Part shown: positions 5,103-51,833 of the stretch, one piece after another
Numbering within the stretch: position 1 is the stretch's first letter
How the letters are laid out: every line of letters starts with the position of its first letter
Assembly (NCBI GenBank): GCA_010093515.1
Contig: MU001672.1
Coordinates: 191,266-255,265 of the forward strand
Origin: Lineolata rhizophorae
Lineage: Eukaryota; Ascomycota; Dothideomycetes; Lineolatales; Lineolataceae
Length of the DNA: 64,000 nucleotides
Direction of reading: 5' to 3'
Notes under the pieces: model-generated
The model's input: only the letters and a program-made list of their open reading frames with translations
What the model was told of the DNA's origin: nothing
Databases searched by the model: none
Translations under genes and position numbers: made by a program

Positions 5103-7074
5103 TTAAGACTCATACCATGTTGCAAAGCCCGGCACTGAGCGTGCGCTAGTATTACGCTTGAGCAAGAGGCGGCTGACCAAACGGGTAGGTCTTGCCCTCT
5201 TCTTGGGTAGGTCAACATTATGCTTGCGTCGTCGGTGATCCCTAACGCTATCACTTCTCGAATACGACTTGCCACAGTCTTCGCAGACGCAATCGGAACC
5301 ACCGGATCTTTGCTCTTGTGGCCCTCGACTAGCACGGCAAGCTCTTTTCTGATGCCTTCTAATGTTCCCACGAATTCCAGCGAGGCTGCTACCCCTAAAC
5401 TCCTTGCCGCAGTCAGGACAGTATTGAAGATTTAAAGTTAATGGCGAGTTCGATAACAGGGCCGGATCCTTGTACGATGTTTCGTGTCTACCGCTGTCGG
5501 TTTATGTCAGCCGTGGGTCAGCTATACAACCCCCGTAACAGAACGTACGTGTCCTCCCCCCCCGGCCTCACTTCATCATCTGTGCTCCGCAAGTTCACCT
5601 CTGAAGGCACTGTTTGACTCGAGTGGTTGTTTGCAGGACGAAGGTAATCACCAAAGACACTTCGTACATTTTTATTTGACCCATGGCCAACAGAATCTGT
5701 TTGGGCTGCCTCAATCCATTGGCCAGGCCCGTTCTGAGCGACATAACTGGTTAAAGCTGGTAGGCTATAAGGCCCAGGGCCATATGCGCTAGCAACTGGC
5801 GTACGGAAGTAATTAGGGTATCTCGTCCACCCAAACCCGTAGGAAGCGGCTGCTTGTTGCTGAACAATATTCGGGAGAAAAGCTCGGTGGAATTTCTGGC
5901 CTACTGGAGGGCACAAGTCGCTCGCTGTTGGCGTTGTGATCGGAGTGTTTTTAAGACTGATTGGTTGGTACCGACTCGCCAGGCCCTGACCAATATTGGC
6001 ATGTTGATAGGATGCGTCAGAAGGGTTGCTTAGTAGGGATGTAGTATCATCCTCGATCGCGGAAATTGCTGACGTTCTTTTCTGTAAACAAGCAGGGTCG
6101 ACTGGGGACACCGGGTGCAATGTAACACTCTCCAGTTCATCTGCAGAGTACTTAGGAAGGACGCCCTGTCTTTGGGCGAAAGGCAGTCCGTCCATTGCGT
6201 CCGGGGTGACAGGGATTCCCACATCAGCTTCGTCTCCTAAGCTCTGTGTCAGGTATCCGGGCGACAAGCCACTTTTTGCTGGAAGCGTAACGTGGCTAAG
6301 GTCTGCGTAACCTTGTTCCAGAGAGTCAGATGCGAAGTGACCATCTTGACATGTCGGAAGCTCCGCGCGGACTAGCTCCGTTCCTGGCATTTCGCAGAGC
6401 AATTCACTCAGTTCAGTTGCGAAATCAGCTGATTCAAACATCGGATCCAAACCCATACCGTAACTCTCTTGCGGAAAATGGCCTTGTGCAAAGGGAGAAT
6501 TGGCCGTTGACAGGTTTTGGGGAACATGAGACACGCAAACTTTGTCGGTACCTACATCCTCTCCTAGGGCAGGAAAGGAGTGGTCGCCCTCGAGTTCGCC
6601 CCATGCATTTCGTCGGTTTGGCTCTACCGGAAGATGTGCTACTTCAGGGTAAGAAGATGTATGTCTCGAATCGATAGCTTGTAGTGCCGCTGTGTTGCTG
6701 GAACTACACATTGGCCTAACCGCGGACATGACATTGGCGATGCTCTTCTTGAGCTTCGTGAAAGCGAAACTCTTCCTTGTATGCGCTTGATGACGAAAGG
6801 ATGCCAACTTAGGTAATGGGCTACTTGGTACGTGACTTGATGGCCGCTGTGACTCTAGCGTTGCTTGGTCGATCGTACTACTCGATACCTTTGGACCTTT
6901 TTTCCACAAAATTGTGAGATTCCGATATGATTCGGAGCGGAGTGAACCACTACTCTCTGACCGTCCGGTATGGCAGGCGCTGCAGCAATGGTACTGGCGG
7001 GAGAGGTCGATCCTATGTAGATTATCAGCATATGTCGGGACTTTCTCATTTTAGCAGCCATACACAATTTGCAT
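5103..7074 (-). CDS. C2HC + C2H2 zinc-finger protein, paralogue A (putative transcription factor)
   Basis: Model: exons 7064-7074, 5549-7012 and 5103-5493, giving 621 residues; both introns (51 and 55 bp) are GT-AG in phase 2. The last intron is secure: GGEDT joins GRHETSYKDPALL, with a CTGAC box before the acceptor. The first exon of 11 nt (MQIV) is inferred. Just after it comes IDLSRQYHCCSACHTG, with a Cys-x2-Cys. Next are a basic amphipathic stretch (KLKKSIANVMSAV) and a long Ser/Pro/Asp-rich, probably disordered middle. The C-terminus has finger 1 (C517, C520, H539, C544; C2HC type) and finger 2 (C562, C565, H578, H583; C-x2-C-x12-H-x4-H), then a basic tail. This architecture suggests a nuclear DNA-binding protein with a degenerate first finger. 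It matches the gene at 50046-51833 in exon layout and motifs. Targets are unknown. Confidence 0.72.
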
Positions 7075-10059: not shown

Positions 10060-13000
10060 CTACTCCTCGCCGACCCAGACCAAGACACCTCTTTTCCCAT
10101 CTCCAACAACGCCCTCCCCAGGCAGTGGCACTAGTTTCTTATTGAAATAGCGATCAGTGACCCTCAAAACAGGTGCCATCCACTTATCGGCATCCCCCTC
10201 AGCATCCGTCTCGCCCTCACCCTCGTTCCTCCCCTCCTTCGAACTTGGCCTTGACGAAGACGGCAGCAACGGCAAGAGACGATACGACACGTTCTGGCGA
10301 GAGTACGGAAGCAGGTGCACGGCGCAAAGCTTGGGGCCCGAGAAGGCGAAATTTTCCGCCGCGTCCATAGCGAGATCGAAGGTCAAGAAGTGCGTCGTGG
10401 GGTTTTCGAGTGTGTATGTCAAGAGGAAGATAGGCGGTGCCGTCACGGCTACGGCATCGTGCTCTTCGTCTGGCTCTTCTTCGCCATCATGGACTGCCAC
10501 GGTGAAAGCCGCAGCACCCCTCACACAGCTCGCAATCACCCTCGGCTCCGCAGCAGCAGCCATTAATCGTGGGATGGGCAAAATCGCCTCTACTTGATCC
10601 CCCACGGCTTCCTCTCCCTCGGTTCCCTCGCTGCCATTTACTCTCCTCCATTTCACCCTTACCTCAGCCTCCACCACTATCGGCCTCCTATCTTCGATAT
10701 CCCTCTTCGCTACACAGACTCCAAAACCTCTGCCCGTCATTTCTTTCGGCTTCACTATCACGCCCTCCTGTTTCTCAACGGGCACCCCACCAGGCCCTTC
10801 CATGCGCGCTGTCACTTTCGGCGCCGACGACCCACCTGACACGCTAAGCACATGCACATGCGCTTCCTCCAGTCTCAGCGGTTCCGTCGCGAAGCTCACA
10901 ATGCGCGCCAAGAGGTTCCATTTATGTATCAGACCCTCGACCGGTTGCTGTTGCATCCCTTCGTTCGTCCCATCGACGCCGCTGTTGGTGACGGCGAAGT
11001 AACTGGGCCATGGGTCCGGGTGAAGGCGAGGGCTCCATTCGTAGTCGGCTTCGAAGGGCGAGACGAAGGCCAAACCGATACTAAGCGTTTTCGATATCGG
11101 TGTCGATTGGTCCGATAAGAGGTGGTAGAGCGCCTTGAGCTCGAGTACGACGTTATCAGCAGGTGAAACGGGCGCCATGAGCGCAAGCGTAGCCGTTGTG
11201 GAAGCTCCGGGCGCAAGCGGGCAAGGGAGTGGATGCCCAGGAAGATCTGAACTGGGCCGTGAGGACGACTGCTCGTCCGAGCTGGATGGAGATGACGGTC
11301 GTGATGATGACGAAGGCACTGCGTCTGATACCCATTTCCATCGCACGCCTTCCTTTAGGCCACTCAGAACACGGACCTCCACAGCGCCCTCCACATCCTC
11401 GTCTTCCCTATTCTCAATCGTAACGCCTAGCTCTACGCGTTCCGCCGTATAATAGACCTGCCTTAACCCATTGACCACGATTTCTACTTTTGGTGGCTTG
11501 GGCAGCACTCGAAGGGCCACGCTATCCGCTACGCGCGATAGGAGCCTCTTGTTTCGGAGCGGCGCCGCAGCACCTTTGCCGGTGTGTTGCTGTTGTAGCC
11601 ACCACACATTACTAGTCCAAGGTGCAATAAGTGACGGTGGCCGTTGGTAGTCTCGTGCGGCGGTGAGCTTGAACCGTGGGTTATTTACCACCGCAATCGA
11701 TTTGCGTAGTACCACGTCTCCAGCCTCGCGGAGTATTAGCGGGAAAGCGAAAACGAGCGCTTGGCCCGCATGCACTGTCAGCGACGCAGTGCCAGCATAA
11801 GTCGGCTTGTCCGTCGGAGAAGGACGCATCTCGGTGAGCGAGATGTTCTCGATTCGAGATGATTCGCTTTCATCCGAGCCTTGATCCGCCAAATGGCTAA
11901 GCTCAATCGCTGTCAACGGCCCGCTGCCGCCGAACTCCACCCTGACCGATTCAAACGTCACCGGAGATGACCCGGGCAATGCGTCCGACTTCAGCATTAG
12001 CTGCGTCTTCACCGGCTCTCCCACATGATCTTCCGGATTCAGGAAAACGCACGACACATCCAAGAACGAGACAACCTTCTCCGCCTCGACTTTGATCCCC
12101 ACCTTCCCCTTATCTCCCTCTCCTTCCTCCGCAACCAGCCCCTCCAGACACCCCATTAGATCCCCCAATCCACCTCCGCCCAGTCTCCTGCTCATAAGCT
12201 CCCACTCCGCGCACACCACCCACTTCGGCTCCGCCGCCCCTACAGCCGCATCTCTCAGCGCGCCCGCCACCCTCGCCACAAGCGGCCACCAGCCTTCCGT
12301 CCGCCAACTCAAGCTCTGCCACAGTGGCGCGAGCGAGTCGAGCGCCGCGCGCCAGCGCCCGGCCTCGAGCAACTGGGTGCCCAGATCCAGCGACAGGCGC
12401 TCGACGAAGCGGTGCTGGGAGCGCAGCGCGAACTGCGAGATGGCCGCGTTGAGCGCCGCGACGATCTCCTCGGCATGGTCGACGCCGCGAACGGGCGCGT
12501 CGCCAGTGTACTCCGGCGGTAGCGGCGCCTCGATGTGCGGCGGCGCACAGAGGTACGTGTCGTAGGTTGCGCTGCGGTGGGCGACAGCGTGCGCCGACGA
12601 CTGCTCCGGTGGCATGCGGTCTTCCTCTGGGATCTCGCGGGCAAGCGCGCGGCGGGCGATGGTGTGCTGGGCCGAGAGGCGGAGCCAGTAACCTGGGTGG
12701 TGGAGGAGGTGCCAGGGCGCGATACGGTTGCCGCTAGGTGTGAGTGGCTTTTCGGGCGGTGGAACAAAGAGTAACATGTCGCCCTTTGGTTGTTGCGGTG
12801 GCGGACTTCTAGCACTACTACTCGGCTCGGACAACACTTGGAACGCTGGTAGGTCTGCCCGTTGGATCAGCTCCGCCATCACGCGCGTCCATCGCGCTTG
12901 CCACGCCTCCCACCCGTAGGTGTTGGCACCTCTGCCCCGCCGATCCAACAGAGCGCGTACACGTTCACGGTAACTTGTCCACGCCTGCACTGCTGGGGCC

Positions 13001-14195
13001 GTGTGTCCACTCCACAAGAAGCACCTCACGATTCTGATCGCCGCAGAATCGGCTAACAACCGTAGCTCGTCCCATCTCGTGCTCCAGCTTGGCGTCGTCT
13101 CAAAGACGCCTGCATCGGCGCCCAAAAGATTGTCAAGAGCAAAGCCGTAGTGTCTCCCTGCGACGTCCATCTCCTGGCGGAATTCGGCGAAGATGCCGAG
13201 CTTGACGTCATAGCGGACGACCCAACCGTGATGTGGAAGGGTTTGAGAAGTACCTTTCGTTGGTGGGAGAGTAGGTGGCGGAATGTTTGAGCGTGTCTTT
13301 TTACGGCGCGCATGCTTGGTGAGATCACGATAGTAATCGATGCAAATAGGATGGAGGGCGGTCAGAACGGATGATACGAACGACGAGAGTTCTACACGGG
13401 AAGTGTTCGGAGGGAGGAAGAACAGCGAATTCTTTGGGTCGAGGCCCGTAGTGCGGCGGATGAGGCCAAGACGTTCTTCAATATCAGGGGCTTGTAAGAT
13501 GGTCTTGTCGCTGAGGAGCACCACCGCAAGGCGCGTTTTATAATCAGAACGCGCAAGCGCAGCTTTCATGCTATTGATTTCGGACTTGAGTTGGTTGTCG
13601 TGCAGGCTATTGCGGGACGGGTCGGACGTAAAGGAGAAGAAGGCGACAAAGACGGCGGGAACGTTATGTTGGTGCTTTGCTACCCAGAGCGGGGTCATCA
13701 CCCCGTCCGGGTATATAGGCGAACCAGGAGAGAGTGGTGATATCGGCGAATGTAACACCCATGTCTGCGGAGCATGGTGCTGCGCTATTGGCGATGGCGG
13801 AGACACTTGCGGTGGGCTAGCCTTCCTTGCGGGCAAAGTGAAGCTCTAAGGTCCTTCTCCATAAGCAAAACGTGTACATATTCCCCGAAATACTAGAAAC
13901 GATCCGCCTAACCTACCCTCCCGACGACCCTCACGCTATAACCCACAATCCCGCCTCTTTCTCGTGCAACCCTGCTATTCCAAGGTGCTTTGGTCGCATC
14001 GGCGGCGAGGAAGTCGTGTAGCAAAGCCTCGGCCCGCTCGCCTGTGACGGGGGGAAGCGCGGAACCGACGGTGATGCCATTCTCAGGGAGGCCTCGGTTT
14101 AGAAGTTCATTTGTCATTGATTCACCGGAACCAAGTCCGGAGAGGACGATCAAAGGGAGGTTGTGGACGACGTAATCTGGCGGATAGGCGTCCAT
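10060..14195 (-). CDS. trappc11: TRAPP complex subunit 11-like protein (Foie-gras / Gryzun)
   Basis: Two exons: 13917-14195 (93 codons) and 10060-13845, separated by a 71-bp GT-AG intron (13846-13916, phase 0). Together they encode about 1354 residues. The start at 14195 gives MDAYPPDYVVHNLPLIVLSG, the typical fungal TRAPPC11 N-terminus; the splice joins VRVVGR to SFTLPARKA. The region around residues 300-620 corresponds to the Foie-gras domain (YGFALDNLLG; AEEIVAALNAAISQF; FVERLSLDLGTQLLEAGRW). The C-terminal third has the beta-rich Gryzun region (FLTYTLENPTTHFLTFDL). The family works in the TRAPP tethering complex at the ER-Golgi/Golgi, in anterograde traffic. A Ser-rich insert lies around residues 950-990. 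The gene is divergent from rxt2 and looks intact. Identification rests on motif recall, not on a search. Confidence 0.85.
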
Positions 14196-15171: not shown

Positions 15172-17132
15172 ATGGCAGCGCAACAAATACTGTTCGCCGA
15201 GACCATTATGGCTATGAAGAAGGCCATGCGTCGCAACACCGATGGTATGTAGCGGCTACCGTGAATTTCTCACGCGGGTCTTTTACTGTGCGCAATACGA
15301 CTGACAATTTCACGCCCAGCTTCCGACTCTGATGAATCGATCGACCGTCCAACCAACCGCGGCAACAAACTCAAGCGCAAGGCCAAATATGTTCAAGAAG
15401 GGCGACTGGACAGCATGAATGGGCCGCCTGCGTTCAAAAAGGTGCGGGCGCTGACAATTAGTTCACTCAGCGTGGCACTACCTGTCTCTGAAGGGCATAG
15501 GTGGTTGCCACCTCTGTCGTAAATTGCGGAGCTAACCAAGGGGCGCGTGCATAGAGAATCGACTATAATGGATATAACCGATATATTGTTGGCGTCAATC
15601 CGCCGCGATTTGATGAGGATGGAGATGTAGTTGACGACGACGACGACGACATGAATGAAGATGCGGGCTCATTCGTGGAAGAAAATCCGTACGCGGAGAT
15701 CAAACTTGAACGTGCGTGCGATTCCGTTCGCGTTCCCCTCGTCTACAACATTCACTCCTTTTAATTCTTTTATTTATTTATTGCTCTCCAGTTCCTCAGA
15801 TTTCCCTAGTCATTCAGGACTCGACACGCTTACGCTGCTGTTATGTCAACAGGTCTCCTCGCTCCGCTTAACCACCCTTCAGAACTCTCCACCCATCCGA
15901 CCATGTCTGTCCCATACTACTCCTCCGCACTACCCGACCTAATTCGCCAGGCAAATATGAATGTTCGGAAGGGAAAGGAGATGCTCTACGATGCCAAGCG
16001 ACTCTTTATGCAGTTCAATGGCGACCCGGTCTGGGTACCGTGTGGCGAAATGCAGACGGAATACGATGATGCCATCCTACACGGCCCTCCGACACCAAGT
16101 GACATGAAAGATGAGGATACTACCTTTTCAGCTCAATTTGCGTGGGATGGGTCAGACCCAGATGGGACACAAGCGATTCAGGAAGGGCCCGGTACCGCCG
16201 CAGGAAATAAAGATGGTGAACCAAAAACGCAACTAAGGACCCAAGGCCACGCTCCGCAATCGGCCGACGCTCCCAACGGCAACACCGTCAACCGCCCCGC
16301 CGCGACGTCGGCCGGGGGGGTCACCGACTCGGACACCGCAATCGTCAACGCGCAACAAAACGGCACCGACGCTTCGGAGGGTACTGGTCCGCATAGAATG
16401 ACAACGCGTTTGCGCAGCAGCGCGCAAAACAGCCGTGCCGGCAGCACCAACGGCCGCAACGGCAACAACGTGAACCATACCGGCGGTGGCGCGGACGCCG
16501 GTGCCGGTGCCGGATCCACATCGCCCACTTTGACAACAGCCTCGTCGACCGCGGAGCCCGCCATTCATCCTTTCTACCTCGCGCCGCCGCACCCGTTCGA
16601 CCCGACACCCACCTTCAACGCTGGCGCCGCCATGGCTGCTGCCACGTCAAACCCGGGCGCCACCGCGGCCATGGGCGGCGGCCCCGCACTCGATCCGGCA
16701 GTGGCAGCCGTAACCGCCACGGGCGTCGTTGCAGGCCCAGTATCGGGTCGAAGCGGTCCGACGCCGTTCAACCTCCCGCCGGCCGAGGCAGAGGAGACGC
16801 GGCGGATGCTGCTGTTGTACGTGCAAAAGATGGGCGAAGCGGTGCGGGGCGCGGAAGCAATGCTCGATCTGCTGCTGAAGGCAGATCGCATGCGGAACGA
16901 GGTGCTGCGAATGTGTCGCGCCGAGGAGCACGTGGGTGAGTGCTCGGACGGCGAGGATTGGGTTGATCCCGAGGAGTGGGGGTTGGAGGAGGGGAAGGTG
17001 CAGGGGGGACTGGTTAAGGGGAGGGAGGAGGAGGAGGATGGGACGGGTGGAGGGGGCGGCGATGGCGGTGGGAGGGGTGAAAGGAGTGGGAAGGGGAGGA
17101 CGAGAGGAAGAGGGAGGGGCGGTGGTGATTGA
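15172..17132 (+). CDS. rxt2: Rxt2-like subunit of the Rpd3L histone deacetylase complex
   Basis: Four exons: 15172-15244, 15320-15441, 15555-15711 and 15853-17132, giving 543 residues. All introns are GT-AG and phases agree (1, 0, 1). Exon 1 reads MAAQQILFAETIMAMKKAMR; the next exons give SDSDESIDRPTNRGNKLKRK, RIDYNGYNRYIVGVNPPRF, EENPYAEIKLE and LLAPLNHPSELSTHP. This is the Rxt2 N-terminal domain. In yeast Rxt2 is a nuclear subunit of the large Rpd3 deacetylase complex, which represses promoters. Residues after about 190 are low complexity: Ala/Gly/Thr-rich, then a predicted helix (EAEETRRMLLLYVQKMGEA), an acidic patch and a Gly/Arg-rich tail (RGRGRGGGD). The intron at 15712 uses GTGCGT; a second GT lies 4 nt further on but would break the frame. 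Its promoter is shared with TRAPPC11. Confidence 0.85.
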
Positions 17133-17845
17133 GTTGGTACCTATGCAGCGAGTGGACATGTATAACTAGTGCTGCTGTTTTCGGGGCTCGGAGTCGATGT
17201 GCTGATAAGGCGAGGTGCTTTATGTGGTGTTTTCCCTGCTTTGGAATTTTATGCTGTTTGATACCATGTCCTTTTCCCATCTTCCAACTTTGTAATGGGT
17301 TTCAGTGAGTGGAGATATCCACAGGAATACCAGCAATGCTCGAAAGTAGGAATTAGACCGTAAGAAAGGTGCCGCGTCTAGTTTTGGTCCAACGATCAAG
17401 GTGGGGCCATGATAGACGCACGTGATCTTGGTGAGGGCGGATAAATTTTATTTCCCGAAGCGGATATCCAAGGGCTTACCATGTTGTTTATCCAATCGGA
17501 AGGCGTGAATTTGCCGCTTGAAGTCGGCCCGCTCGACGTATCGCGAACCTCACCTTCCTTCCGCCTTGCTTCACCTCACTTCATGGGCCTGCTGCGTATA
17601 GCATTGTGAACCCCTTTCCTCATGCAAACGGCGTAAACTTTTTCTATTTAGACACCCACGATGCGACGATGAAACGCATATGTCCTATTTTGATCCTTTT
17701 AGATAATTTCGATCCTGCAAGTCGCGACTGCGCTTAAACGCGCTATTTTGCAGTTTCCTTGCGTGCCGCACGAGCTTCGATACGCGCGTCCAGGTCAGCA
17801 ATTGCTGCTGCAAGCGCTGCACTCGCACTAGAAAGCGGATCGGCC
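17133..17845. other. Intergenic region between Rxt2 and the G-patch gene
   Basis: This segment should contain the Rxt2 terminator and the promoter of the downstream gene in the same orientation. No gene-like reading stands out. The frame of the G-patch gene is open upstream to 17759, but no ATG lies in that extension, which supports the start at 17846. Confidence 0.5.
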
Positions 17846-19510
17846 ATGTCATACAAGCGCAACCGTTCCGCCTTCGAATCCGACATCCCACCCCCCCCGC
17901 CATCGTACGCTATCTTCGGTACGCCCCTCTCCGGCGGCGAAAATGCTCGTGACGACGGCACCTTTGTCCCCGTGTGGAAGCAGACAGTCACCGACGAGCG
18001 TGGGCGCAAACGGTTGCACGGCGCTTTCACAGGCGGCTTTTCGGCCGGCTACTTCAACACGGTGGGTAGCAAGGAGGGCTGGACGCCGAGCACCTTCGTA
18101 AGCTCGCGGACGAACAGATGGAAAGGTGGCGCCGACAAAGATGGAGAACATAAGTCGAAAGGGCAGAGAGTGGAAGATTTCATGGACGAGGAGGATTTGG
18201 CCGAGAGGGAGGAGGAAAGGAGAGTGAGAACGAATGAAGGGTTTGGTGGGCTGGGAGGCACGGCGGAAGAGGTGGGCGCGAGAGGTGGAGATAGGCTGAT
18301 GGATTTAATCAGGCCGGGCGGAGAGACTATGGGAGTGAAATTGCTGCAGCGGATGGGATGGAGAGTTGGGCAGGGAGTAGGGAGGAGAGTGAGGAGGAAG
18401 GCTAGAGGGGATGAGGAAGCCGGAACGGAGACGCATTGGTTTGCGCCCGAAGATTCTAAGATGGTGTCATTTGCGAAGAAGAATGATACTATGGGTCTAG
18501 GGTACGATGCGGACAAGGAAGGCGGGCCTCTAAAGAAGCCCGATCGAAACGGAGGAAATGGCTCAGATGCCGAAGAGAACGAAGACGGGGAAGAGGAACC
18601 GTCGGCCTTTAGACCGGTGTTCAAGTCATCCAAGGGGACTGCCAATAAGACCCCAGCGCGGAAGTCGGGTTTCGGAGTCGGCATCTTGAACGACACAGGC
18701 TCGGACGATGAGGACCCTTACGAAATAGGGCCAAAGATCTCTTACAACCGCACGATTGGTGGCTCCGACAAGAAGAAAAACAAGACAAAGCCGAACGCCA
18801 AAACCTGCATCTCTCCTTCCACCACTAGTGGACTCCGCAAGCCTTCCTCCATCGGCGCCAACCCCCTTCTGCGATCCGGCTCCGTCTTCGTTTCGAGCAG
18901 AAAGACACCCAGCGGCACTGCATTCACCCCTGCACCCTCCAACGCCGGCTTCCACAAGTGCCACGACGGCTGCCTCCCACTCGACGGTTTCGTCCTCTCC
19001 GTCTCTATCAACCCATCTGATGCACTCAACTCCAAGACTTACGCTCCGCCCAGGATCCCCGAGGGCTGGAAGAGCGCTAAATCGACATCGGCCTCTCTAG
19101 CCGCCGCAGCCGCACAACAACAGCAGCAATACCTCTCTGCTGCCGACGCGGCCCGCGCCTCAGAACTTAACCCCTCGGCTCGCGGCGCGATGATCGGGGA
19201 AGCTCCGCTTAAAGGCCCGTCCGTTTTTGAGCTGCTCTCGCCGGAGGCGCGGGCGCGACTGGATGCCGCAACGGCGGGGCTGGCTAGCAGGTTTACGAAG
19301 GCGAAGGCGCCAGTGGGTCCGGACGGACAGGCGGGAACGGAACCGGTCGTACAGGACAAACCGGCGGACCCGGCGGTCGAGGCGGCGAAGATGGGTATGT
19401 TTGGCGAGTTGACTAGGAGTAAGGTGGCGTGGAAACCGGCAAGGCTGGTCTGCAAGAGGTTTGGGGTTAGTGTGCCAGATGTCGCTGAGGAAGGAGAACA
19501 GGCTTTTTAA
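17846..19510 (+). CDS. GPATCH1-like G-patch domain protein (DUF1604 N-terminus)
   Basis: A single exon of 554 codons. The N-terminus (FESDIPPPPPSYAIFGTPL, then GTFVPVWKQTVTDERGRKR and HGAFTGGFSAGYFNTVGS) is the DUF1604 region found in GPATCH1 homologues. The G-patch follows at residues about 160-185 (GVKLLQRMGWRVGQGVGRR). Next come MVSFAKKNDTMGLGYD and DEDPYEIGPKISYNRTIGG, also family blocks, and near the end LTRSKVAWKPARLVCKRFGV. The family is nuclear and tied to spliceosomes and mRNA processing; G-patches typically bind and stimulate DEAH helicases. The protein stops soon after the last block and is somewhat shorter than many relatives, so a missed 3' exon is possible. The stretch KTKPNAKT...SSRKTP is Ser/Thr-rich and probably disordered. 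It is probably independent of Rxt2 despite the shared strand. Confidence 0.85.
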   Translation: MSYKRNRSAFESDIPPPPPSYAIFGTPLSGGENARDDGTFVPVWKQTVTDERGRKRLHGAFTGGFSAGYFNTVGSKEGWTPSTFVSSRTNRWKGGADKDGEHKSKGQRVEDFMDEEDLAEREEERRVRTNEGFGGLGGTAEEVGARGGDRLMDLIRPGGETMGVKLLQRMGWRVGQGVGRRVRRKARGDEEAGTETHWFAPEDSKMVSFAKKNDTMGLGYDADKEGGPLKKPDRNGGNGSDAEENEDGEEEPSAFRPVFKSSKGTANKTPARKSGFGVGILNDTGSDDEDPYEIGPKISYNRTIGGSDKKKNKTKPNAKTCISPSTTSGLRKPSSIGANPLLRSGSVFVSSRKTPSGTAFTPAPSNAGFHKCHDGCLPLDGFVLSVSINPSDALNSKTYAPPRIPEGWKSAKSTSASLAAAAAQQQQQYLSAADAARASELNPSARGAMIGEAPLKGPSVFELLSPEARARLDAATAGLASRFTKAKAPVGPDGQAGTEPVVQDKPADPAVEAAKMGMFGELTRSKVAWKPARLVCKRFGVSVPDVAEEGEQAF

Positions 19511-22318: not shown

Positions 22319-23253
22319 TAGAACTGCTAAGGATTCGCTTCACGAGTGAAGGTCGACAGATGTTGAGCTTACGTAAGACGCCAAGGACGAGTGCGTTGCC
22401 AAGAAACTGCTGTGTTCGGCATCTCGAGATACGGAACAGAGGAAGGTCTTTCCTTTGTCCAACTGATAATGCTCTTCCCTTATATCATATTCGTACTTCG
22501 CATCAAGAGCTCCTTGTTCAGAACTCCATAATTAGCTTCTTCAGCTCTTCGACACGGACGATAAGTAATGAGGCCTAGCAGCTACCACAAGAAGACTACT
22601 GATCTGACGAAGATTTAGGACGACGTGTACTATTATCACGTCGATTTGGACTTGCGGTCACGTTAAAGGCCGACGAATAGACTCCTCCTGCTGCAACGAC
22701 CCAGGAAACTGCGTGAAAACACCGATGTTCCCGGGATCTGTGCTGACCCAAGGTGCAATACTCCACCTTCGTCGTAGATTGACGATGGTGTGATGGCTTG
22801 ACTTAGGGAGAGGGTTGTACCGGCGTCCGTTCACGTCACTAATACTGGACAAGCTGTCGGATTTGTCGTGGATATCACGTACCTATGGCAGCAATAGTCA
22901 CGTGATGCTTGGGGCCAAGTAATGCCTGCTCCGGTTCAGCGCACAGCGTACGGAGTGCAGGTTCTCTGCCACCTCGAAACTCAACCTCGTATACACTCTG
23001 TTTGCCACCGTATACCCTGTGGAGCTCGACATGATCTTTCGGGCTTCGCCCAATCACGAGTGCATCACGAGCGCTTGCCTGCATCGAATCTGACTTTGTG
23101 TCACTCGGTCATTGGAGGTATTGCGGTTACACAGCATACCTGATATGTCAATATTTCGCTCTTGGATAGGATGAGTCAAAGGATGAATTAAGAGCCGATT
23201 CTACGCGATAGTCTTCTACAGTGAACTTTGATGTTCATGACATTTCTTACGCT
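22319..23253. other. Intergenic stretch with two short coding-like readings on the - strand
   Basis: Two neighbouring - strand readings look more protein-like than chance: 22658-22852 (NGRRYNPLPKSSHHTIVNL, RRRWSIAPWVSTDPGNIG) and 22875-23084 (SARDALVIGRSPKDHVEL, LLGPKHHVTIAAIG). They could be fragments of one old gene, but I could not join them with a phase-correct intron. Nothing else was recognised. The right end holds the promoter of the C2H2 gene starting at 23254. Confidence 0.35.
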
Positions 23254-27486: not shown

Positions 27487-27563
27487 CTGAGGAAGGCCCC
27501 AAAAGGCGAGCCGAGTTCGTGTACTACAGTACACCCTCGCTCGCCTTTTGGGGTCTTCCTCAG
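27487..27563. repeat. Long near-perfect hairpin (25-bp arms) with nested inverted repeat
   Basis: The left arm 27487-27511 (starts CTGAGGAAGGCCCC) pairs with the right arm 27539-27563 (ends TTGGGGTCTTCCTCAG), with a single mismatch in 25 bp. The 27-nt spacer contains a second inverted repeat, GTGTACT-AC-AGTACAC. The structure could form a cruciform or a strong RNA hairpin. It could be a terminator-like fold, a remnant of a miniature inverted-repeat element, or a small-RNA precursor; the sequence does not decide between these. Confidence 0.8.
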
Positions 27564-27591
27564 TTCTAAGGGCAGGCGAGGTTAGTACACA

Positions 27592-27722
27592 GCACGGCAC
27601 AGGAGCACGCATTACAGTCTAGAGCGAAGCACGTGGCACAGGGAGAAGCACGTAGCACGTAGCACGCCACAGAGGGGAAGCACGCAGCACAGCACATCGG
27701 GGAGCACAGGAGCACGCCGAAC
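27592..27722. repeat. Degenerate AGCAC/GCACG repeat tract
   Basis: Following the hairpin, the words AGCACG, AGCACGT, AGCACAGG and GGAGCAC recur more than ten times in about 130 bp with irregular spacing (for example AAGCACGTAGCACGTAGCACG). It looks like a diverged short tandem repeat. Function unknown. Confidence 0.65.
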
Positions 27723-37400: not shown

Positions 37401-40400
37401 ATTTTCCAGCCTCCGCGCACAATGATAGAATGGAAAGTATCTCGGGCGCTATCGCTCACGTTGAGAAGACGAAGTGCCCTGAGCGCCTTGAATGCACCCA
37501 CCACGCGCGACACTTCGCCCTCGTTTAATAGTGACGCACCGACGTTAATCCAGAGAGTAATGAGCACAATACCGTCTATAAATCCCCAAGATCCGCGGAA
37601 GTACGCGTTCGGGGTCCAGAAGAAACCGTCCGCAATGACCTTGATTATCGCCTCGACCGTGAATAGGATAGCGAAACCCATGTCAGTGAAGACGAACCAA
37701 TTTTTAACGCTGAATTCATTGGTCGTAAAGTATTCCTTCTGATAGAGAGGCGTTGTTACGCAGGCCAAGATAACCATCGCAACGATTGCCGCATACAGAA
37801 ACGCCGAAAAGGCGTACCACACGGGAACTGACGGCGCTACACCTTCGATGCGGTCACCGCCACGTCCCGGACCCACGATGCGCTGGCAGATCTTGCGAAT
37901 GGGGTTATGAGGCTTGAAAATGAACAGCGAGACGTTATAATTCGGGTGTTTGCGGAGGTATTCTCTTTGTTCCAGTTTACGTTTTTCGGTAGCAGACACA
38001 ACCTCTTTGGCCATTCGTCGGGGATCTAGGTCTTCGTAGGCGCGCGATATTTGGAGTCGGGAGTAGAATGGATTCGGTTCGGTGTGGCGAAAAATTCTCA
38101 TGAACTTCGTATAGAGAGTCGACATGATTCCAGAGGACACGATGGTCGTTGGAGCAGGTCCCAAAGCCGCGTTCGGATCGACTTCGGGATTTGGTCGCTC
38201 AGGAGACTGATCTCCCTGGTCATCTAGGAAATCGCGAACAACAGCGTCCTTCAGCAACATCTCGGTCGCAGCGGGTCCATAGTCGAGCGGATCTTTACGG
38301 CGCCCGGTTGCCTGACTGAGTTTGAATATTGTCGATAGCGAAAGGTTCCTGTATTTGTCAGTCCGACGATTTAGGAGGCAGAAATTACGACTGAAGCTTA
38401 CCCATGAGACGAGCCGCCCATCTCCTTTTGCTGCAAGAACGCCTTAACTTGCTGCAAGCGTTTCTCATCCTCTGAGACATCAAAGTTCTCCTGGATGACA
38501 GCAATGAACATGTTCAAGACAATGACTGGTTTTGCACGTGAGCGTCTCATTTCGACCCTTCGGTGTAGGTCCGAACTTACAGTTTGCCAAAATGAACCAC
38601 ATGATGAAGAACGCAGCGCCGATCCAAGCCTGGCCGTAGAATACCTCAATGGTCGTAATGCTGTACATGATTGACGTCCAATCCTCGCTAGAGAAAATTT
38701 GATACATTCCCAAAAAGGAATTATAAATGGTCTTGAACGTGACCGGGAGAGCCTCCTCGCCATCGTCCGGTGGGAGTTCGCCGCGAAATAATTGCGAGGC
38801 GAAGATGGCGGCGAGGAATGTCAGAAGTGCGACGAAGAGAATCAAGTTAAGGATACCGGATACGTTGCCGAGAACTACCATGATCAAGTCTCGTGTCAGA
38901 GGCACCGCCAGGACGACACGGTAGATTCGGATGATTTGAAAGATGGTGAGCCAAGCATACGGCTCTCCCGAGTTGTGAATCGGCGGTATCTGGATGATAG
39001 TAGTAATGACCGCCAAGAACAGGTCGACAAGGTTCTGTTTGCCTTTGAAAAAGTTTCTCCAGTCGACAGCGATTCTTAACACAATCTCTACATCTAACGC
39101 AAGGGTTACGGCAGTTTCGGATGCGTCTGTAACAGTTAGCTCGACCGGAAGTCACACTTATCAAGACAGTGCACTGACCGAGGAATTTCATTCGCCAGTC
39201 ACTCATCTCAGCACTGCGGAGCGATTGGCACAAAAGACCGTAGCAAATGATTGTTATCCAAATCCAGCGAGTCTTGTTGAACAAGTACTTCAACGTGTTC
39301 TTCGGCAATTTCTTAGTCTTCTCTTGATCTTCGTCCAAGAGGGTCTCTTTCTTCTCCTCTGCCGTGAACGCGCTTGCCTTGCTTTCATCTCGAATGACGT
39401 TAAAGGACGAGGTAATGACAGCGATGAGCAGGGAGATAAGCCAGAGACTCATGATGATAATAGCGAGAGCGAAAACTATGCAAATAGTTAGCCGAATTCA
39501 ATCACGAAAGGGAAAGGCTCGACAATGACTTACAGAGTGCTCCAGCGAGGTACTCGCTATCCATCAAATAATACATTATTTCGGAAAACGTATTCGACGA
39601 CATGATTACAAATACCTGCTGTAGCGATTGCAGAATGTTATCGTACGAGACGGTGCCATTATACGGGTTATCCCCTTCGATGCAACGCGACTCTGGCGGG
39701 CATAGAAAGCCTTTGGGCGAGGAAGTGCCCGCCGTGATACCGTCTGCTTTCAGCCAAGGCCTATGTTGGCCATCGGCGCCGATATAACCACCGCAAAACT
39801 GGAAGTCATTGACGAAGTCGTCCAAAACACCTTCGGGGTCACGCCAAACGCAGGTACGCCTCAGGCTCGACTTGAATGTCTGCACGCCCACGACTGCGAA
39901 AAGGAGCCAGAAGAAGCCCAGTAGGAAGGCAACGTTGACAAGCAGCGGCGCAGCCTTCTTTAAGCTTCGCAGGATGACCGTCGTGCCGCTCGTCATGCTG
40001 AGCAGACGCAGGATCCGCAGGCAGCTAAGCATCCTGAAAATGTAGAGATGCTCTCTTGACTGGATGCCGAACACGGAAATCACGAAGCTAACCCAAAACG
40101 AAACCACGGCCACGAAATCAAGTCGATTGAACGAATGCCGAAGAAAGGCGCGATGGGCAAGCCGGACACGCTGCTGCTGGCGAGAACCGCCAGGCACCTT
40201 CTCTAGACCTGGGTGAGATGTAAAAGATCTCAGGATGGATGGCTGGACGTGTTGCTGGGTGGAAGCAGAACGCTTTAGCGAGGCGGCTCTCTGCGGAGCA
40301 AGGAACGTGTTGGCCTTGTCTATGATTGCTTGGCGCAACCCAATTTGGCGGTTGATCGTGCTGTACTCGATTGGATTGACTATAAAGCCGGACACGATGA

Positions 40401-41760
40401 CTCGAACGATGATCTCAATGGTATAGATGACGAATAGTCCGAAGAGGCAGTAATCGATCCAACTTCCTCCAAACCGCTGGGGACGGGGATGCGTCGCCAC
40501 ATCTTGAGCCGAATCCACCGTTAATAATATTGTCTGAATGACAATCAGGACGAGGATGAGAGGTTCGGTGACTGGGTGAACCAGCAGATCGCACAACCTG
40601 AGCCGAAGACGACTGTCGTAAGGGAAGATTCCTAGTGACTTGCCCCTAAAAGGATTGTTATGGATCTTCCAGTCCAGCATCGGAGGGGGGGGTGGAGGCG
40701 GAGTAGGGCCCTTCGGTGCGGTAGGCTTTTCGGGTGGCCGCGCAGTCGACGGCGCTCCGTCATGCGCGTAGTCGGACAGCGCGGGGAACGACGGCGGTTG
40801 CTCCAATCGCGATTGCTTGTGTGACGACTTCCTTTGTATACTTCGTTCCACAAGCTCTGGTTCGTTACTTAGGTTGACAACGCGCTGAGACATGTTCCGC
40901 ACGATAGTCCCCGCCCGCCTCAGCGGAGAGCTCCCGCCAGGCGACAGCGACCGCATGCGAGATCCGGACCGCTCCAATCCTCTCTCGTCAGACGGCGAAA
41001 GAGACCCGATATTAGCTTCGACGGTCGGAAGATCGTCACCCAGGCGGGACGCTGCCGGTGACCTAGTCTCCGGGCTCAAAAACCGAACGGTTTGGAAGCT
41101 CGACCTGTCACCAGGCTGCAGGCCAGTGGGCGTCGTTGGCTCCGCCACTCCCATCGGTTGTAGATGTCCACGATCCGTCAAAGGCGCCGTGTCAGTATAG
41201 ACTGGCGAAAAGTTGCTCCGATCCGGATCCTCCCAATCTTGAGTCGATTCGCTCTCGCTCCTCTGCAAGGGCGCCACGCCGGACACCATGCTTGCGCTCG
41301 TATACGACGGCTCCCGATGCAAGTCCGTTTCCGAGCTGCTCTCCCCCTGAAAACTCAAGCCCGCAAACCCGCCGATGGCCTGTTGGAACGCGCCCAAATC
41401 GTCCAGAGGCGAGATATCCGGGGCATCCTGGTGAGGTGCGCCGAATCCGCCCGTCTGGAGCCGAGGCGGGTGTTGCGCCTGCCCTGCCCCCGCGGACCGC
41501 TCAAATCCCGCCCGAGTCGGGCTCGGCGACGTCTCCGCGATCGGCGCATATCGAGTGCCGGGCCTGCCCGTTAGCGACTCTCGATTCCGCAGCAGATCGC
41601 GGCCGCGGTCGCTGAGGGTCCGACGGTGCAACGCCCCCCGCTGCTGCCAATGCGAGTCGGCGCTTTCGCCCTCATCCGGCGGGCTGTTCAGGTCCTGCAG
41701 CGGTATTCCCTGCGGCGTCGAGCGGTCGCGCCGGTGCGAATACGGGTCGTCGGAATCCAT
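34479..41760 (-). CDS. cch1: Cch1-type voltage-gated calcium channel alpha subunit
   Basis: Seven exons: 39534-41760, 39179-39475, 38581-39126, 38402-38525, 35957-38348, 35575-35894 and 34479-35415. They total 2280 residues, typical for filamentous fungi. All six introns (52-159 bp) are GT-AG, and phases 1, 1, 1, 2, 0, 2 keep the frame. The N-terminal 370 residues are Ser/Pro-rich and cytosolic. Four six-helix repeats follow. Their pore signatures are SSNTFSEIMYY (I), FSSEDWTSIMYS (II), SQEGWIDVMWAAE (III) and TSVGEGWNELMEDF (IV). Repeat I thus has Asn where animal channels have Glu. Arg/Lys-spaced S4 helices are visible, for example MLSCLRILRLLSM. An EF-hand-like stretch follows repeat IV (FKQAWAEFDPNGTSFITKEQ). 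The C-terminal tail is long and Gly/Ser-rich. In yeast, Cch1 acts with Mid1 in the plasma membrane for high-affinity Ca2+ uptake under stress. Confidence 0.93.
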
Positions 41761-43274
41761 TGGGAGAATCGACCTCCCGGCCGCCGGCGGTGATGCTCCT
41801 CCGTCGCACCCGACTGCTCCTCCTCATTTGCCTTCTGAGGCCGCTGCTACTGCTCTTTCAGCAGGGCAGGGCGTGCCAGTCTCGTAAATGCCGTCGCTCG
41901 TTTATCGGAGAGATGCCGGGACGGCCAGTTCGGTGGAGTTGCGAAGTGTCGAGCTGGGAGTGGTAGCAACACGTCAGGTCGATCGCGTCGTCAGCACGGG
42001 TGCGTTATCCGGATTGGTCGATGCGCAAGCGTGAGATTGGGGCGTAAACTAAGTCGATGGGGGCGCTGCCGCTGAAAAGGTTCAAAATAAAATCCAAACG
42101 ATCGTTGAGGGTCGGAGGTGGATGCAGCGATGCTTTGTTGTTGGAGAAAACAGGGACTGGTGCGGCGAGCGTTGCGCGGGAGCTGGAAGAGTTTCATGCC
42201 GCATGGGATAATCGCGTTTGGTATCGCGACCGTTCTCCACCGCACTATCTCGCTTTCAGCAAAACGGCAGCCCGCAACGTCAGCCACAGGAGGCCAGGGT
42301 CGGCTCCTCCTATTAATAGGAAAGCCCGCCACACTCTATCGCCGTGCAGTCCCGATAAGTTTTCTTTAATTTTTCAAGGCTCTGGCTACCTATTGGCCTC
42401 TTGCAGCTTGCCAGCACAAATTCATGCGGCCTTGAATGTTGCGCCCATTATAGGTGCTTCAACCGTGGATCCCCCCCTTTTGCGATGTCACCGCAGCACC
42501 ATGGGATCCGTACCATGGTTCACCATCCTTCAGACTCGGGGAAATGGGAAGGAGCAGGGTCCCAGTGACAGTGACATAAGCATTGTTTCTGTATCAAACT
42601 CTCACCGAGAATTTTTACCAATGCCGTGGTCAGCTTTGTGCTGTGAAATGGGATCTGAAATTGCAGTGCTGATGCACGACTTCAAAAATCACCAAAATAA
42701 AAATGCAAGCGCGCGCAGCCCACATGCAGACCGGGATGGCTGGCGCAGCGGTTCACCGTGCCGGCCAAACCAGCGGCGCCCCTTCCGCTCCTGTCAAGCG
42801 GCGCCAGGAAGCGGTTCCGCGGCCCTGAGTCCTGCGCTATACCCGTTCGAGCAAGGCCTGCGTGGGCATCTGCTGCCGAGATCTCGCTCTGTCATCCCCT
42901 TCGCGCCAAAAAGTCACTGCACCCTAACACCACACGTCCATGCTACGGCCGTTCTTGGCCCGCCGCGACATTTCTTCCTCATTCCTTGCACCTCTCACCG
43001 CACGGCGGCCTCTATCGACCGTTTGCACTCTCCTTCGCGCCGCGACCTTTCGGCAAACTTATTTTGCCACCAGACTCCGCGTTTGGTCGTGTGCCCCAGA
43101 CGCGCGCCGCGCCTTTGTTCGTGTCCGCACGACTTGCCTCGCGGTCCGTGGCACGTCACGCCCGCCAAAACGCGTCCTCGTCCGCCGCCGTGTCTCTCCG
43201 CCCCGCCCACGCGCCCAGAAAGCGCGTAGCTTGGCCGCCACCCGCGCAACCGACGACCACCGTCGCCTGTTGCC
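41761..43274. promoter_or_regulatory. Divergent promoter region between cch1 and the PHD gene
   Basis: The start codons of cch1 (41760) and the PHD-finger gene (43275) face away from each other across 1.5 kb. An open reading crosses much of it (42057-43229), but it is Pro/Arg/Ser-rich without domain features and is best taken as chance in GC-rich DNA. The last 300 bp before 43275 are pyrimidine-rich, as is usual for fungal promoters. Confidence 0.55.
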
Positions 43275-46200
43275 ATGCCGTCGAGAAAGCGGACGCGCGA
43301 CGAGACGGAGTCGGAGGACGCGACGATGCCGCCGGAGCCCAGCTTGCTGGACCGGCTGCGCAACATGTGGGAGTTTGCGAGCTTGATGCAGTATATCTTC
43401 ATCTTCGGCAAGGTGGTCAAGATCGACGAGGATTTCGATATTGAAGTATGGATCCACCAAGACATCCACGTTGCGCACGCGGCGTATGCTGATGCGACTT
43501 CATCGAGCAGGATTTGGAGACCGAGTGTTTGAGGCCAGGGCCGTCGGAGAAGTTGGCGGAGATTGGCTTAGCTCTACTCAAGTTCGTTTCGTCGCACAGA
43601 GGCTTGACGTAAGTCGTATATAGTAGCAGGCTATGAAATTTTATGGTCGAGGCTAACGATCGTCCAGCCTAGAGCTCTTCGACGAATACACGCGCCGTCA
43701 GTACGTAGCTAAGGCACCGCAGCGTAACCCTTTTGGGGAGGAAGAGGAGCCCAAAAAGTTCGCCGACTTCGACGTGTCCACCAAAATCCGCGTCCTACAC
43801 CAGCTCTCAACTTGGACTTTGTGGAACCCCGACCGGATTCGCGAGCGCATGCCTGAGCAGCGCGACGTCGATCAGACACAATGGCGTATCGAACAATTCG
43901 GTTGGGATGACGAGGACCGATCGTACTTCCTCCTTGACGATGACCGGCTCTACCGTCGCACCGATCCTCCACTTCCGAAACCGACTCCAAAGTCGAAGTC
44001 GAAGGCAAAATCGAAGTCAAAAGCGCGCACACGAACGGCTGCCAGAGCAGCCAAACGGCGCAAGGTCATTACTGACAGTGAGGCGGACGAGGATCATGAA
44101 GAAGGCGCAGATGGGGAGGATGAAAACAAAGACCAACCTCAGGACGATGGCCTCGGAGGCATGAAGTGGGAGTGCATTTGTGTGACGATGGATGACTATA
44201 CGGCGTTCATGGGATCCATCCGCCGTAGCAAAGATCCAAACGAGAAGTCTATGTACAAGCGTCTCCAGGAAGAGGTCATACCGGTGCTGGAGAAGAGGGC
44301 CGAAGAGCAGCGTAAAAAGATGATAAGGAGGCAGAAGGAGCTGGAGAACCTGCAGAAAATGGCCACGGCAAAGCGCTCGAGTCGCATTGCAGACAAAATC
44401 GGGAAACAGCGTGAGCGGGAGGCTGCTGAAGAAGCAGAGCGAAAGAAAAAGGCTGAATTGGCTAAGGCCAGGAAGGAACAGGAGAAATTGAAGAAGATGG
44501 AAGAGGTACGTTTTTGCAGTTGCTATGGGTATTGGGATTTGCTAACGTTGCGCTCTCTAGGCACGCATGTCACGTGTTCAGACTCGAGAGCAACGCGTCA
44601 AGGAGCGTGAGATGAAGCGCGTGCTCCACGAGCAGGAGCTTGAGAAGTTGAAAGAGGATAGCGAGAAAGTTGGAGTGGACACGTCCGATTCGCGTTTATC
44701 AGAACGCCACCTAAAGGCGGAAATGAAGAAGCGCCAGATGGAATTGGAGAAGATCGCTCAAGAAGACGATGAGTGGATATTTGATTGCGCTGGATGTGGC
44801 GTTCATGGCCAGAACGTGGTGAGTTATTATGATACTTCTGTGCGGGCAAACTTTGGCTGACTGGCCCCCAAGGATGATGGTTCTCACAGCATTGCCTGTG
44901 AACGTTGCAACGTTTGGCAGCATAGTGCTTGCAATGGTATTTCAAAGAAGGAAGCTGAATGCGAGGATTTCCACTTCGTGTGCGGAGACTGCAAGCGCCG
45001 TGAGGAAGAAGCTAATCGCCCGAAGATTCCACCACTCAAAATCAGGCTTGGCTCGTCTTCCTCGCCTCAGAATGGCGAAACGTCGATCAAGGACACCGCT
45101 GACGATGCTGCTGCGTTTCAAATGAGTCCGTCGCAGCTTTCTCAGCACGGAACACCTTCCGGATCCTTCCAACAGCCGTTCCTACCTCCGAGTGGGTCGC
45201 CGTACTACAATAGCCCCGCTCAGAAGTCGCCTGTAAAGCAGGCCCAACCCGTGATTGAGGTCTACAGGAGCGTGCAATCGTCGCCTTCAGCTCAAGGGAC
45301 ATCAGCGGGGATGAACGGTTTTCTCTCACGACCACAGCCGAACGGCACGAGTGCATCAAACGGCACCGGGGCCCTGACAACCTCTCCGGATCGTCCGTCA
45401 TCATCTTGCACCAATGCGAATGGTGCAAATGGGCAAGGGTCCGCATCCGACCCTACAAAAGGAGAATTTCAATGGCCAAAGCCATCCGCTTCACTCCAGC
45501 AGTTCCAGACGTCGGTCCAATCGAAAGCGTCTGAGCCACGTCCTCCCCCGTTTCAATCCCCTAGTCAACCGCAACAATCGCAGCCGCCGATGGCGTGGCC
45601 TTTCCAAAACAACGTTCCCTCAACCACGCCCGGCTCGCACATCCCTCCGACAACCCCCAACACCTCTTTCTCTACGGGCCGCGGTCGCACCCCATCTTCA
45701 TCATTTTCCCTCCAAAACAGCCCGCCGCTCCACCCGCCTCAACTACCCCCTCAACATCCATCACACGCGCCCACCACAGGCACCACTTCGCCCGCCCCCG
45801 GGATCCCCGCGTCGACGCCCGGCTTCTCCCCCACGAAGCACAGCCCGCCGCGCCCGGCGAGCCAGGGCAACTCGAGCAGCGCCGCGGCAAGCTTCTCGGG
45901 CCTGGCCACGTCGCGCCGCGGCTCGGCCGCCGGCTTAGGCGTCGCCGGCGCCGAGGGCCACCACGCGACGGTGCTACCGCCGGCGCCACACCTCCAGCCG
46001 AGCAGCGACTTGATGCAGGAGAACAGGGGCGTACCGGTGAAGCGGACGCCGGAGCGGCCGCAGCAGCCGCCAATGCCGTCGGCAGCGATGCAGCGGGAGC
46101 ATGTTGATCCGGCGAAGGTGAAGCCGGGCGAGATTGAAGCTCAGGCTGGGGTCGGGGAGAGGATGCACTTGGACATGCCGGTGCCGGGGAAAGGGGCGGA

Positions 46201-46276
46201 GATGCCGGAGCCGATGGAGGTGGATGGCAGCGCGAAGGAGGTGGATGTGGGGATGGATGTGAATGGAACGGGTTGA
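43275..46276 (+). CDS. DDT/WHIM-like and PHD-finger chromatin protein (RSF1-like)
   Basis: Five exons: 43275-43445, 43511-43608, 43668-44505, 44561-44818 and 44873-46276, 922 residues; all introns are 54-65 bp GT-AG and in phase. The N-terminus (LLDRLRNMWEFASLMQYIFI, FGKVVKIDEDFDIE, DLETECLKPG, LTLELFDEYTRRQYV) resembles a DDT domain. VLHQLSTWTLWNPDRIRERM and QWRIEQFGWDDEDRSYFLLD are WHIM-like. A Lys/Arg/Glu-rich coiled-coil region (about residues 285-440) follows. A PHD finger (Cys4-His-Cys3) lies at about residues 443-497: DCAGCGVHGQN, SIACERCNVWQHSACNGI, FHFVCGDCKRR. The 420-residue C-terminus is Ser/Pro/Gln-rich and disordered. DDT-WHIM-PHD architecture is known from chromatin-remodeller subunits such as RSF1, so a nuclear, histone-reading role is likely. 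The donor at 44819 (GTGAGT) was preferred over one 3 nt upstream. Confidence 0.85.
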
Positions 46277-50045: not shown

Positions 50046-51833
50046 ATGAGTAAATTTACTCTCTTCGAGTCCGTGTGTCCAGGCCTAACTTACCTTGTCA
50101 GACTTTAACACGCTGCAGGATCAACAGCTACCGCCAGTGTCAGCAGTGTCATAGTTGCACGATTTGGTACAGTCGAGAAGCAGGACCTGCCACCCTCAGT
50201 CCTCCTCCATACTCTGGCGCCGATCCGCATAGCAGCAGCTTCTCCAGTACCTCCAAGCGTTCCTGGAAGGTACACATCGCCGCCAGGAACCCCCCAGCAC
50301 CAGGGATTCAGCCTCGACCTGCCACTGCAACGGCATCTTCAAAAGGTCATCACTCACTCCAAAGCTCGTTGCCCGAGTCAGCCTCTGCTGCAAAAGGAAG
50401 AAGGCATTCTCTAAGGAAGAAGTTCAAGAAGGCCATGAAGTTCGTTTTGCCAGCCCTACCGAAGGTGGATGAGTTTGAAAAGCAGGTCATAGGTCCGGCC
50501 TGCCAAACATACAACACCGACGACCTCTTAGACGGGCAAGCCACCTCGATGATTCTGCCCTCTTCGGCGTACACCACCGACAACATGTTTCCGGGGCAGA
50601 TGTTTGAAATGGGGGATTCTCGCGAACCCGAAGAGCTTGATGCAAGTCGTCTTCCAGCCGAATTGGAAGCAGGAGAGGTCGAACCACGTGCGGTTGCTGC
50701 GCCGACTTTTGCCCGCCCACTTACACAGGGTATCGATGGTAGTCTGTCGGAGCCTATTGGCAGCCCGGGATCATCTTTGGATCAGTCTGCCCAAGCTTGG
50801 TCCTCAATATCCAGCAGCCCTCGCGACGGATGCGAGTATGGAGCATCGTTTCCGTTTCAATCAGGTAGACAGGATCAAGGCAATAACGTCCTCGAGGGTA
50901 TCGGTGAGCCTCGTTGCCTCCCAGATTCTTGGCCCCATCCATTCTCTCCCGCCGAAGGCACCACGACACCCGACGACTTTTCTCCTATATCTCAACTCGA
51001 CCATCGTGCTTCTCGCCCAATCCCATCCGCCTATAGCGAGGACTCACTCTTGCGTCTTGGAAATGACAGCTCGTATCAACCTTGGGGCCCTTCTAAAGGC
51101 AGCATGTATCAGACCCCGGCATCGGACGAGGGCGGGTATGCTCCCACTCGTGATTTCCAAGAAGTCTGTTTGCCCAATTCTGCCAACTCGGCCCCCTGGG
51201 TGGGAACTTTTGATGCGCAGGAAACACGGCACTACAATGGTCAGTACGTGACCAACAGCGAACCACCGGATCCCGCCAATAGGAACGCAACGATGGAATC
51301 TGTAGTTGGTACCAAGGCTCCTCAATTTGGAATGGCCAGGCAGGTTCAGGTCACCCCTGTAGCGTTCTGTGGAGGAAAGGACAGGTCAGCACCACTGAGA
51401 CATAGACTGTTTCCCAAACAGGCGTAAGTACTCACTAGTACACTCTGTGCTTATGCCTGTCTGACGACTTCGCAAAATACGAAGCAAGACGCATCTAAGC
51501 AAAAGTGGCAATACAGCCAGAGATGCATACCACGACCCAGATCCATCAAGTCAGTTGTTAGGCATGCAATCTTGCCCTGACTGGTCTTTGGCGTGCGAAT
51601 ACTGTGACGCGAAGTTCACTGGGCAACTGAACTATGCCCATCAAAACAAGAAGCGACATTACGACCATACGTGTCCGGCATGCCCGCGGAAAGCTGGCGA
51701 TAGAGAGAAGCGAACTTGCCGGATCTGTGGAAAGCTTCTCTCCAGGTCAGACGCTCGCCAGAAACACGAGAAAGACATGCACCGCGACGTGTATTCGTCT
51801 CTGCCTCCTTTCAAGCGGGCTAGGCGACAATGA
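50046..51833 (+). CDS. C2HC + C2H2 zinc-finger protein, paralogue B (putative transcription factor)
   Basis: Model: exons 50046-50068, 50119-51423 and 51485-51833, 558 residues, phases 2 and 2. An acceptor at 51499 would also keep the frame and remove 5 residues. The first exon (MSKFTLFE) uses a GTCCGT donor, so it is less certain. After it comes INSYRQCQQCHSC, with the Cys-x2-Cys aligned to that of paralogue A at 5103-7074. Then come a basic amphipathic segment (HSLRKKFKKAMKFVLPALPK) and a Ser/Pro-rich middle of about 330 residues. Finger 1 is C2HC (C480, C483, H501, C506; motif AKFTG...NKKRH) and finger 2 is C2H2 (C521, C524, H537, H542; CRICGKLLSRSDARQKH). An extra Cys-x2-Cys (506-509) sits between them. 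The form is like fungal paired fingers with the F-x-G...N-x-x-R-H and S-R-S-D-A signatures. Probably nuclear and DNA-binding; targets unknown. Confidence 0.7.

Follow-up and report, generated by a model that had tools for sequence, protein, structure and literature searches.

Two diverged zinc-finger genes of Lineolata rhizophorae, very probably paralogues, with a matching first intron

Results and Discussion

Genes A and B and their surroundings

The window analysed here, a stretch of 64,000 nucleotides (contig C3, positions 191266-255265), belongs to a genome of 30,968,845 bases in 48 contigs and contains two zinc-finger genes, here called gene A and gene B, which lie on opposite strands with their starts 42,972 bases apart (Table 1). 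Its short introns and its set of genes are suggestive of a filamentous fungus. Both models of the original prediction could be rebuilt from the sequence, gene A ending at 5103 and gene B at 51833, and each is again predicted to begin with a tiny first exon. In both genes exon 2 can be read in frame for a short distance upstream of the proposed acceptor, but its first in-frame ATG lies about 100 residues downstream of the protein start, so that an upstream exon is needed unless translation starts internally; the tiny first exons provide one. When codons are scored on the basis of five reference frames taken from the window, the frame that is read comes out best of six in exon 2 of A and of B, albeit weakly, with a negative score for the first 30 codons of this exon; for exon 3 of gene A the read frame scores -0.127 and is second best of six.

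Several other genes were recognized in the window. A gene with Foie-gras and Gryzun domains (10060-13845, minus strand), which we take to be TRAPPC11-like, is followed by an RXT2-like gene (15810-17132, plus strand) and a DUF1604/G-patch gene (17738-19510, plus strand). A third C2H2-type gene (23212-23871, plus strand) encodes three fingers that resemble each other, two with the ending QHLRDSPVHA, and matches Pfam zf-C2H2_jaz (1.6e-15); it does not have the long first finger of genes A and B. An inverted repeat with 25-nt arms that are 96% complementary and a 27-nt loop is located at 27487-27563. Adjoining frames at 35789-41823 (minus strand) contain Ion_trans stretches, two in 35792-38443 and one in 39505-41823, and the first of these frames matches voltage-gated calcium and NALCN channels of known structure; together they probably form one calcium channel gene with introns, presumably of the Cch1 type. 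A frame at 44861-46276 (plus strand) contains a PHD finger just under the Pfam cut-off (23.9 versus 24 bits), and two consecutive frames at 61487-63627 (minus strand), which match the N-terminal domain of the Mediator subunit Med16, are probably one gene with an intron.

Table 1. Features of genes A and B, with positions counted from the first base of the window
Feature	Position	Strand	Remarks
Gene A	5103-7074	-	rebuilt from sequence, 621 aa
Gene A exon 1	7064..7074	-	11 nt
Gene A intron 1	7013..7063	-	51 nt, GTATGG...CATAG, phase 2
Gene A exon 2	5549..7012	-	
Gene A R-Q-x3-C-x2-C motif	6973..6999	-	13 nt after acceptor
Gene A basic segment	6712..6777	-	RKSFAFTKLKKSIANVMSAVRP, from charge profile
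Gene A candidate middle motif SLL...D-x-SYQ	5998..6039	-	14 residues, weak
Gene A intron 2	5494..5548	-	55 nt, or 61 nt with acceptor 6 nt further; phase 2 in preferred model
Gene A exon 3	5103..5493	-	
Gene A finger 1	5337..5420	-	C-x2-C-x18-H-x4-C
Gene A finger 2	5220..5285	-	C-x2-C-x12-H-x4-H, SRSD
Gene A PKKRAR	5190..5207	-	putative, nuclear-signal-like
Gene B	50046-51833	+	rebuilt from sequence, 560 aa
Gene B exon 1	50046..50074	+	29 nt
Gene B intron 1	50075..50118	+	44 nt, GTGTCC...TGCAG, phase 2
Gene B exon 2	50119..51423	+	
Gene B R-Q-x3-C-x2-C motif	50132..50158	+	13 nt after acceptor
Gene B basic segment	50399..50452	+	RRHSLRKKFKKAMKFVLP, from charge profile
Gene B candidate middle motif SLL...D-x-SYQ	51044..51085	+	14 residues, weak
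Gene B intron 2	51424..51484	+	61 nt with acceptor ACGAAG; phase 2 in all options
Gene B exon 3	51485..51833	+	
Gene B finger 1	51594..51674	+	C-x2-C-x17-H-x4-C
Gene B finger 2	51717..51782	+	C-x2-C-x12-H-x4-H, SRSD
Gene B PFKRAR	51807..51824	+	putative, nuclear-signal-like

The N-terminal part and the middle of the proteins

The R-Q-x3-C-x2-C motif described for both genes is present at the same distance from the first intron. The peptides around it are weakly alike, their score being reached in 151 of 5000 shuffles and in 461 of 5000 when Cys is kept fixed. Further downstream, the original prediction placed a basic amphipathic segment. Its basic character stands, with net charge peaks of +10 and +12 per 40 residues (His counted), while its amphipathic character was not borne out by a hydrophobic-moment scan, in which windows containing Pro were passed over and the four highest-scoring windows of A, like those of B, overlap in the finger region. 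The likeness of the region around the basic segment is again weak (127 of 5000 shuffles reach the score). A layout of basic, acidic and basic charge, which had gone unmentioned before, is common to A and B; the correlation of the two charge profiles is 0.465, a value reached in 49 of 2000 shuffles.

The middle parts of the two proteins resemble each other weakly (38 of 1000 shuffles, and 22 of 300 in a separate run), and between intron 2 and finger 1 there is no significant likeness (1209 of 5000 shuffles). HHalign of A and B without their tails gave a score of 26.0, the best of 60 shuffles reaching 24.4, and the match consists of 14 residues in the middle, SLL...D-x-SYQ, which we regard as a candidate motif.

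The finger exon

The last exon of both genes can be read as originally proposed, with a C2HC finger followed by a C2H2 finger that carries SRSD, and the two Cys and two His of this second finger are at C2H2 spacing. A P-x-KRAR sequence follows the fingers in both A and B and is an addition to the original prediction. Against the cut-off of 25.2 bits for Pfam PF00096, gene A scores 23.7 bits as a whole protein, below the cut-off, and 29.8 bits with the last exon and 26.0 bits in the genome scan, both above it. The last exon of gene B remains below the same cut-off at 14.2 bits, and its whole protein has no match at E 1. Pfam searches with separate finger-1 and N-terminal pieces returned no family above cut-off, and an assignment to the BED zinc finger (PF02892) was rejected at 11.6 and 12.2 bits for A and B versus a cut-off of 20.6.

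Structure prediction, in which the other tail was the sole aligned sequence for each tail, gave two beta-beta-alpha fingers in each tail with moderate confidence (pLDDT of 82-87 in A and 74-81 in B for the mid-finger blocks, and 56-62 for the edge blocks). In the predicted A tail, strands 21-24 and 31-34 and helix 37-50 are followed by the second finger, and the order is the same in B. Sequence searches of the PDB with the two tails found generic C2H2 fingers. The best PDB matches of the predicted tails in Foldseek are mostly tandem C2H2 DNA-binding domains, for example 2rsi and 2drp, with no match at E 0.001 or below.

In the two fingers of gene B, K and R (R in finger 2) occupy a helix position that we take to be usually part of the hydrophobic core, so that B may bind poorly. 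These polar residues, together with the lack of a Pfam match above cut-off, would fit a gene B that is decaying, or that no longer binds DNA and works instead through contacts with proteins. We consider such a fate improbable, as B has retained an intact reading frame and all of its eight zinc ligands, its splice sites can be found and its finger fold is still predicted.

Similarity between genes A and B

BLASTP aligned A and B at E 2e-6, with 33% identity over 111 columns of the last exon and no significant match beyond it. The profile alignment that had been suggested as a check also succeeded, HHalign giving E 6.6e-5 and a score of 43.3 over 76 columns with 38% identity, compared with 23.7 for the best of 40 shuffles. 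Any two C2H2 proteins resemble each other through their Cys and His residues alone, and the tail of B was therefore shuffled with these residues fixed; the score of the finger exons was then reached by one of 5000 shuffles, and the single fingers were weak (147 of 5000 for finger 1 and 40 of 5000 for finger 2). In an all-against-all comparison of 520 frames of the window, the finger exons of A and B form the strongest (E 1.9e-4) of three non-overlapping pairs below 0.01.

The DNA directly behind the first intron is similar as well. The 20 bases after the intron 1 acceptors of A and B match at 16 positions; of the 8041 AG sites that the two strands of the window contain, the next best matches at 13, with the same outcome whether the bases of A or of B serve as probe and the probe's own site is excluded. 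This comparison was made after the GATC at the acceptors had already been pointed out; without GATC, 12 of 16 bases match.

The fingers on their own are less telling. When the window and the fetched loci are searched by phmmer, gene B has gene A as its best non-self match (17.1 versus 15.0 bits). The finger exon of A, however, reaches 19.9 and 19.8 bits with two further C2H2 loci in the genome and 16.6 with B, and its Smith-Waterman score is 89 against one of these two loci and 83 against B, so that the fingers alone do not prove paralogy. These better matches elsewhere, and the weak similarities of the N-terminal parts, the single fingers and the middle, could mean that A and B are unrelated C2H2 genes whose finger likeness is generic and whose N-terminal and intron likeness is due to chance and was picked by eye. 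We rate this reading as rather improbable: the similarity of the tails persists with Cys and His fixed, the acceptor-flanking DNA is the best match in the window by three bases, and the long-spaced finger occurs only in A and B within the fetched set. Judged from sequence comparison, the likeness of A and B is beyond chance for the last exon and the intron 1 acceptor DNA and weak for the rest, and the tests of the finger exon, the acceptor DNA and the other similarities combined make it very probable that the two genes are homologous, that is, paralogous.

Positions and phases of the introns

In both genes intron 1 lies in phase 2 directly before GATC, as originally described, and with the chosen ATG and acceptor it splits an aligned Val codon (GT^G). 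The predicted position and phase of this intron are thus the same in A and B. A second phase-2 intron had also been claimed for both, and it is present in the preferred models, where the best donors, GTACGT in A and GTAAGT in B, are both in phase 2. In gene A, donor GTACGT can be joined to two phase-2 acceptors (exon 3 starting from 5493 or 5487) that keep finger 1 and the residues preceding it, but weaker splice sites also allow phase-0 introns that keep both fingers, with GTGAAC, GTGAGG or GTTCTG as donor and TACAAG as acceptor. In gene B all 10 of the 10 listed options are in phase 2. The noted acceptor of B ends in AAG and the same donor also allows exon 3 to start at 51500, 51506 or 51521, so that this start may lie up to 36 nt further on. 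In the preferred models, whose acceptors are uncertain, intron 2 precedes finger 1 by 24 residues in A and by 36 in B. Homology of A and B and a matching predicted intron 1 are both supported, and the agreement in phase of intron 2, which holds in the preferred models, is less certain.

Copies elsewhere in the genome

A genome scan with PF00096 marked at least 112 places in 70 loci, a list that includes A and not B, and each place was covered by the window or by a fetched stretch with at least 150 bases before it and at least 250 after. Among the 7250 frames of these 84 sequences (the window and the fetched stretches), the long first-finger pattern is found in A and B only. Protein searches of the genome with the A tail, the B tail, the N-terminus of B, exon 2 of each gene and finger 1 of A did not recover the partner copy. 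A weak match of the tail searches at C3:379011 (35% over 31 residues) was set aside as an ordinary C2H2 gene by its frame, and a scan of viral contigs yielded 413 pattern matches and no confirmed relative. As the scan list lacks B and the tail searches miss the partner, a member diverged like B would be missed, and two is a lower bound for the number of copies; the closeness of A and B on the contig is therefore not independent evidence for a local duplication.

It is conceivable that A and B are homologous without being local duplicates, and that they belong to a fast-evolving zinc-finger family with many dispersed members and are close to each other by chance or through the reading of this window. 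The pair did come from reading one window only, and genome searches with either tail miss the other gene, so that other diverged members would be missed too. Fast-evolving orphan genes often have a lower third-position GC, and the values of A and B (0.48 and 0.54) are low compared with 0.65-0.69 in the five reference frames of the window. Against this, none of the at least 112 PF00096 places in 70 loci holds a third first-finger pattern, in a list that lacks B. We regard a dispersed origin as unlikely, although it deserves more weight than a decaying gene B or unrelated genes. A segmental duplication that included neighbouring genes was rejected, A and B being the strongest of three protein pairs in the window and having no repeat of at least 25 nt in common. 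The original description of the two genes holds in nearly all its details. Of the old duplication of a regulator family in the original prediction, homology is upheld by the finger exon, the acceptor DNA and intron 1; a family of more than two members, a local duplication and the role as regulators are what we infer beyond that.

Proposed function and comparison with known systems

We consider it likely that A and B are paralogues that go back to an old duplication of a single fungal zinc-finger gene, and that they probably encode nuclear DNA-binding transcription regulators. The predicted tandem-finger fold, the Pfam match of A and P-x-KRAR point to such a role. Judging from P-x-KRAR, both proteins would be nuclear; their two C-terminal beta-beta-alpha fingers, a long-spaced C2HC finger and then a C2H2 finger, would bind DNA, and the presumably disordered, acidic, Ser/Pro-rich middle may act on transcription. 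In the Zif268 numbering as we understand it, the second fingers of A and B have R (position -1) and D (position 2) in common and differ at 3 (S/A) and 6 (D/K). The R-S-D at the helix start presumably reads a 3' G by the Zif268 code, and the differing contact positions suggest that the targets of A and B have probably diverged.

It is tempting to speculate further that A and B found a lineage-restricted fungal regulator family, marked by a C2H2 finger behind a long-spaced C2HC finger (FxG...N..RH....C), in which the N-terminal R-Q-x3-C-x2-C serves as a further metal or partner site and the targets are split between two neighbouring copies, but we think this improbable. A and B are an ordinary kind of gene pair. 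If the favoured reading of A and B as old paralogues is right, two zinc-finger genes have been named, and gene structure together with short exon DNA can reveal paralogy although the greater part of the protein has diverged; the pair is a further case of orphan C2H2 genes in fungi and leaves known mechanisms unchanged.

The finger exon of A and the spacing of finger 2 in both genes agree with Pfam zf-C2H2 (PF00096), whereas B falls below its cut-off and the first fingers have 17-18 residues from Cys to His and end in Cys. Zif268-type finger arrays have a short linker; in A and B the linkers between the fingers are longer, with 17 and 14 residues, respectively. Msn2/4 and FlbC, which we take to be fungal regulators with two C-terminal fingers, presumably have these fingers after a long low-complexity part, as in A and B. 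One gene of the genome that we assume to be FlbC-like (locus L006) accounts for a match to the fingers of A at 19.9 bits, but is without the long first finger. Solved tandem C2H2 domains (2drp, ZFAT 2rsi and CTCF fingers) are among the top Foldseek matches of the A and B tails, but share 11-24% identity with them, and the first finger of A and B is longer. The second-ranked Foldseek match of the A tail is the R2 retrotransposon protein 9nl3.
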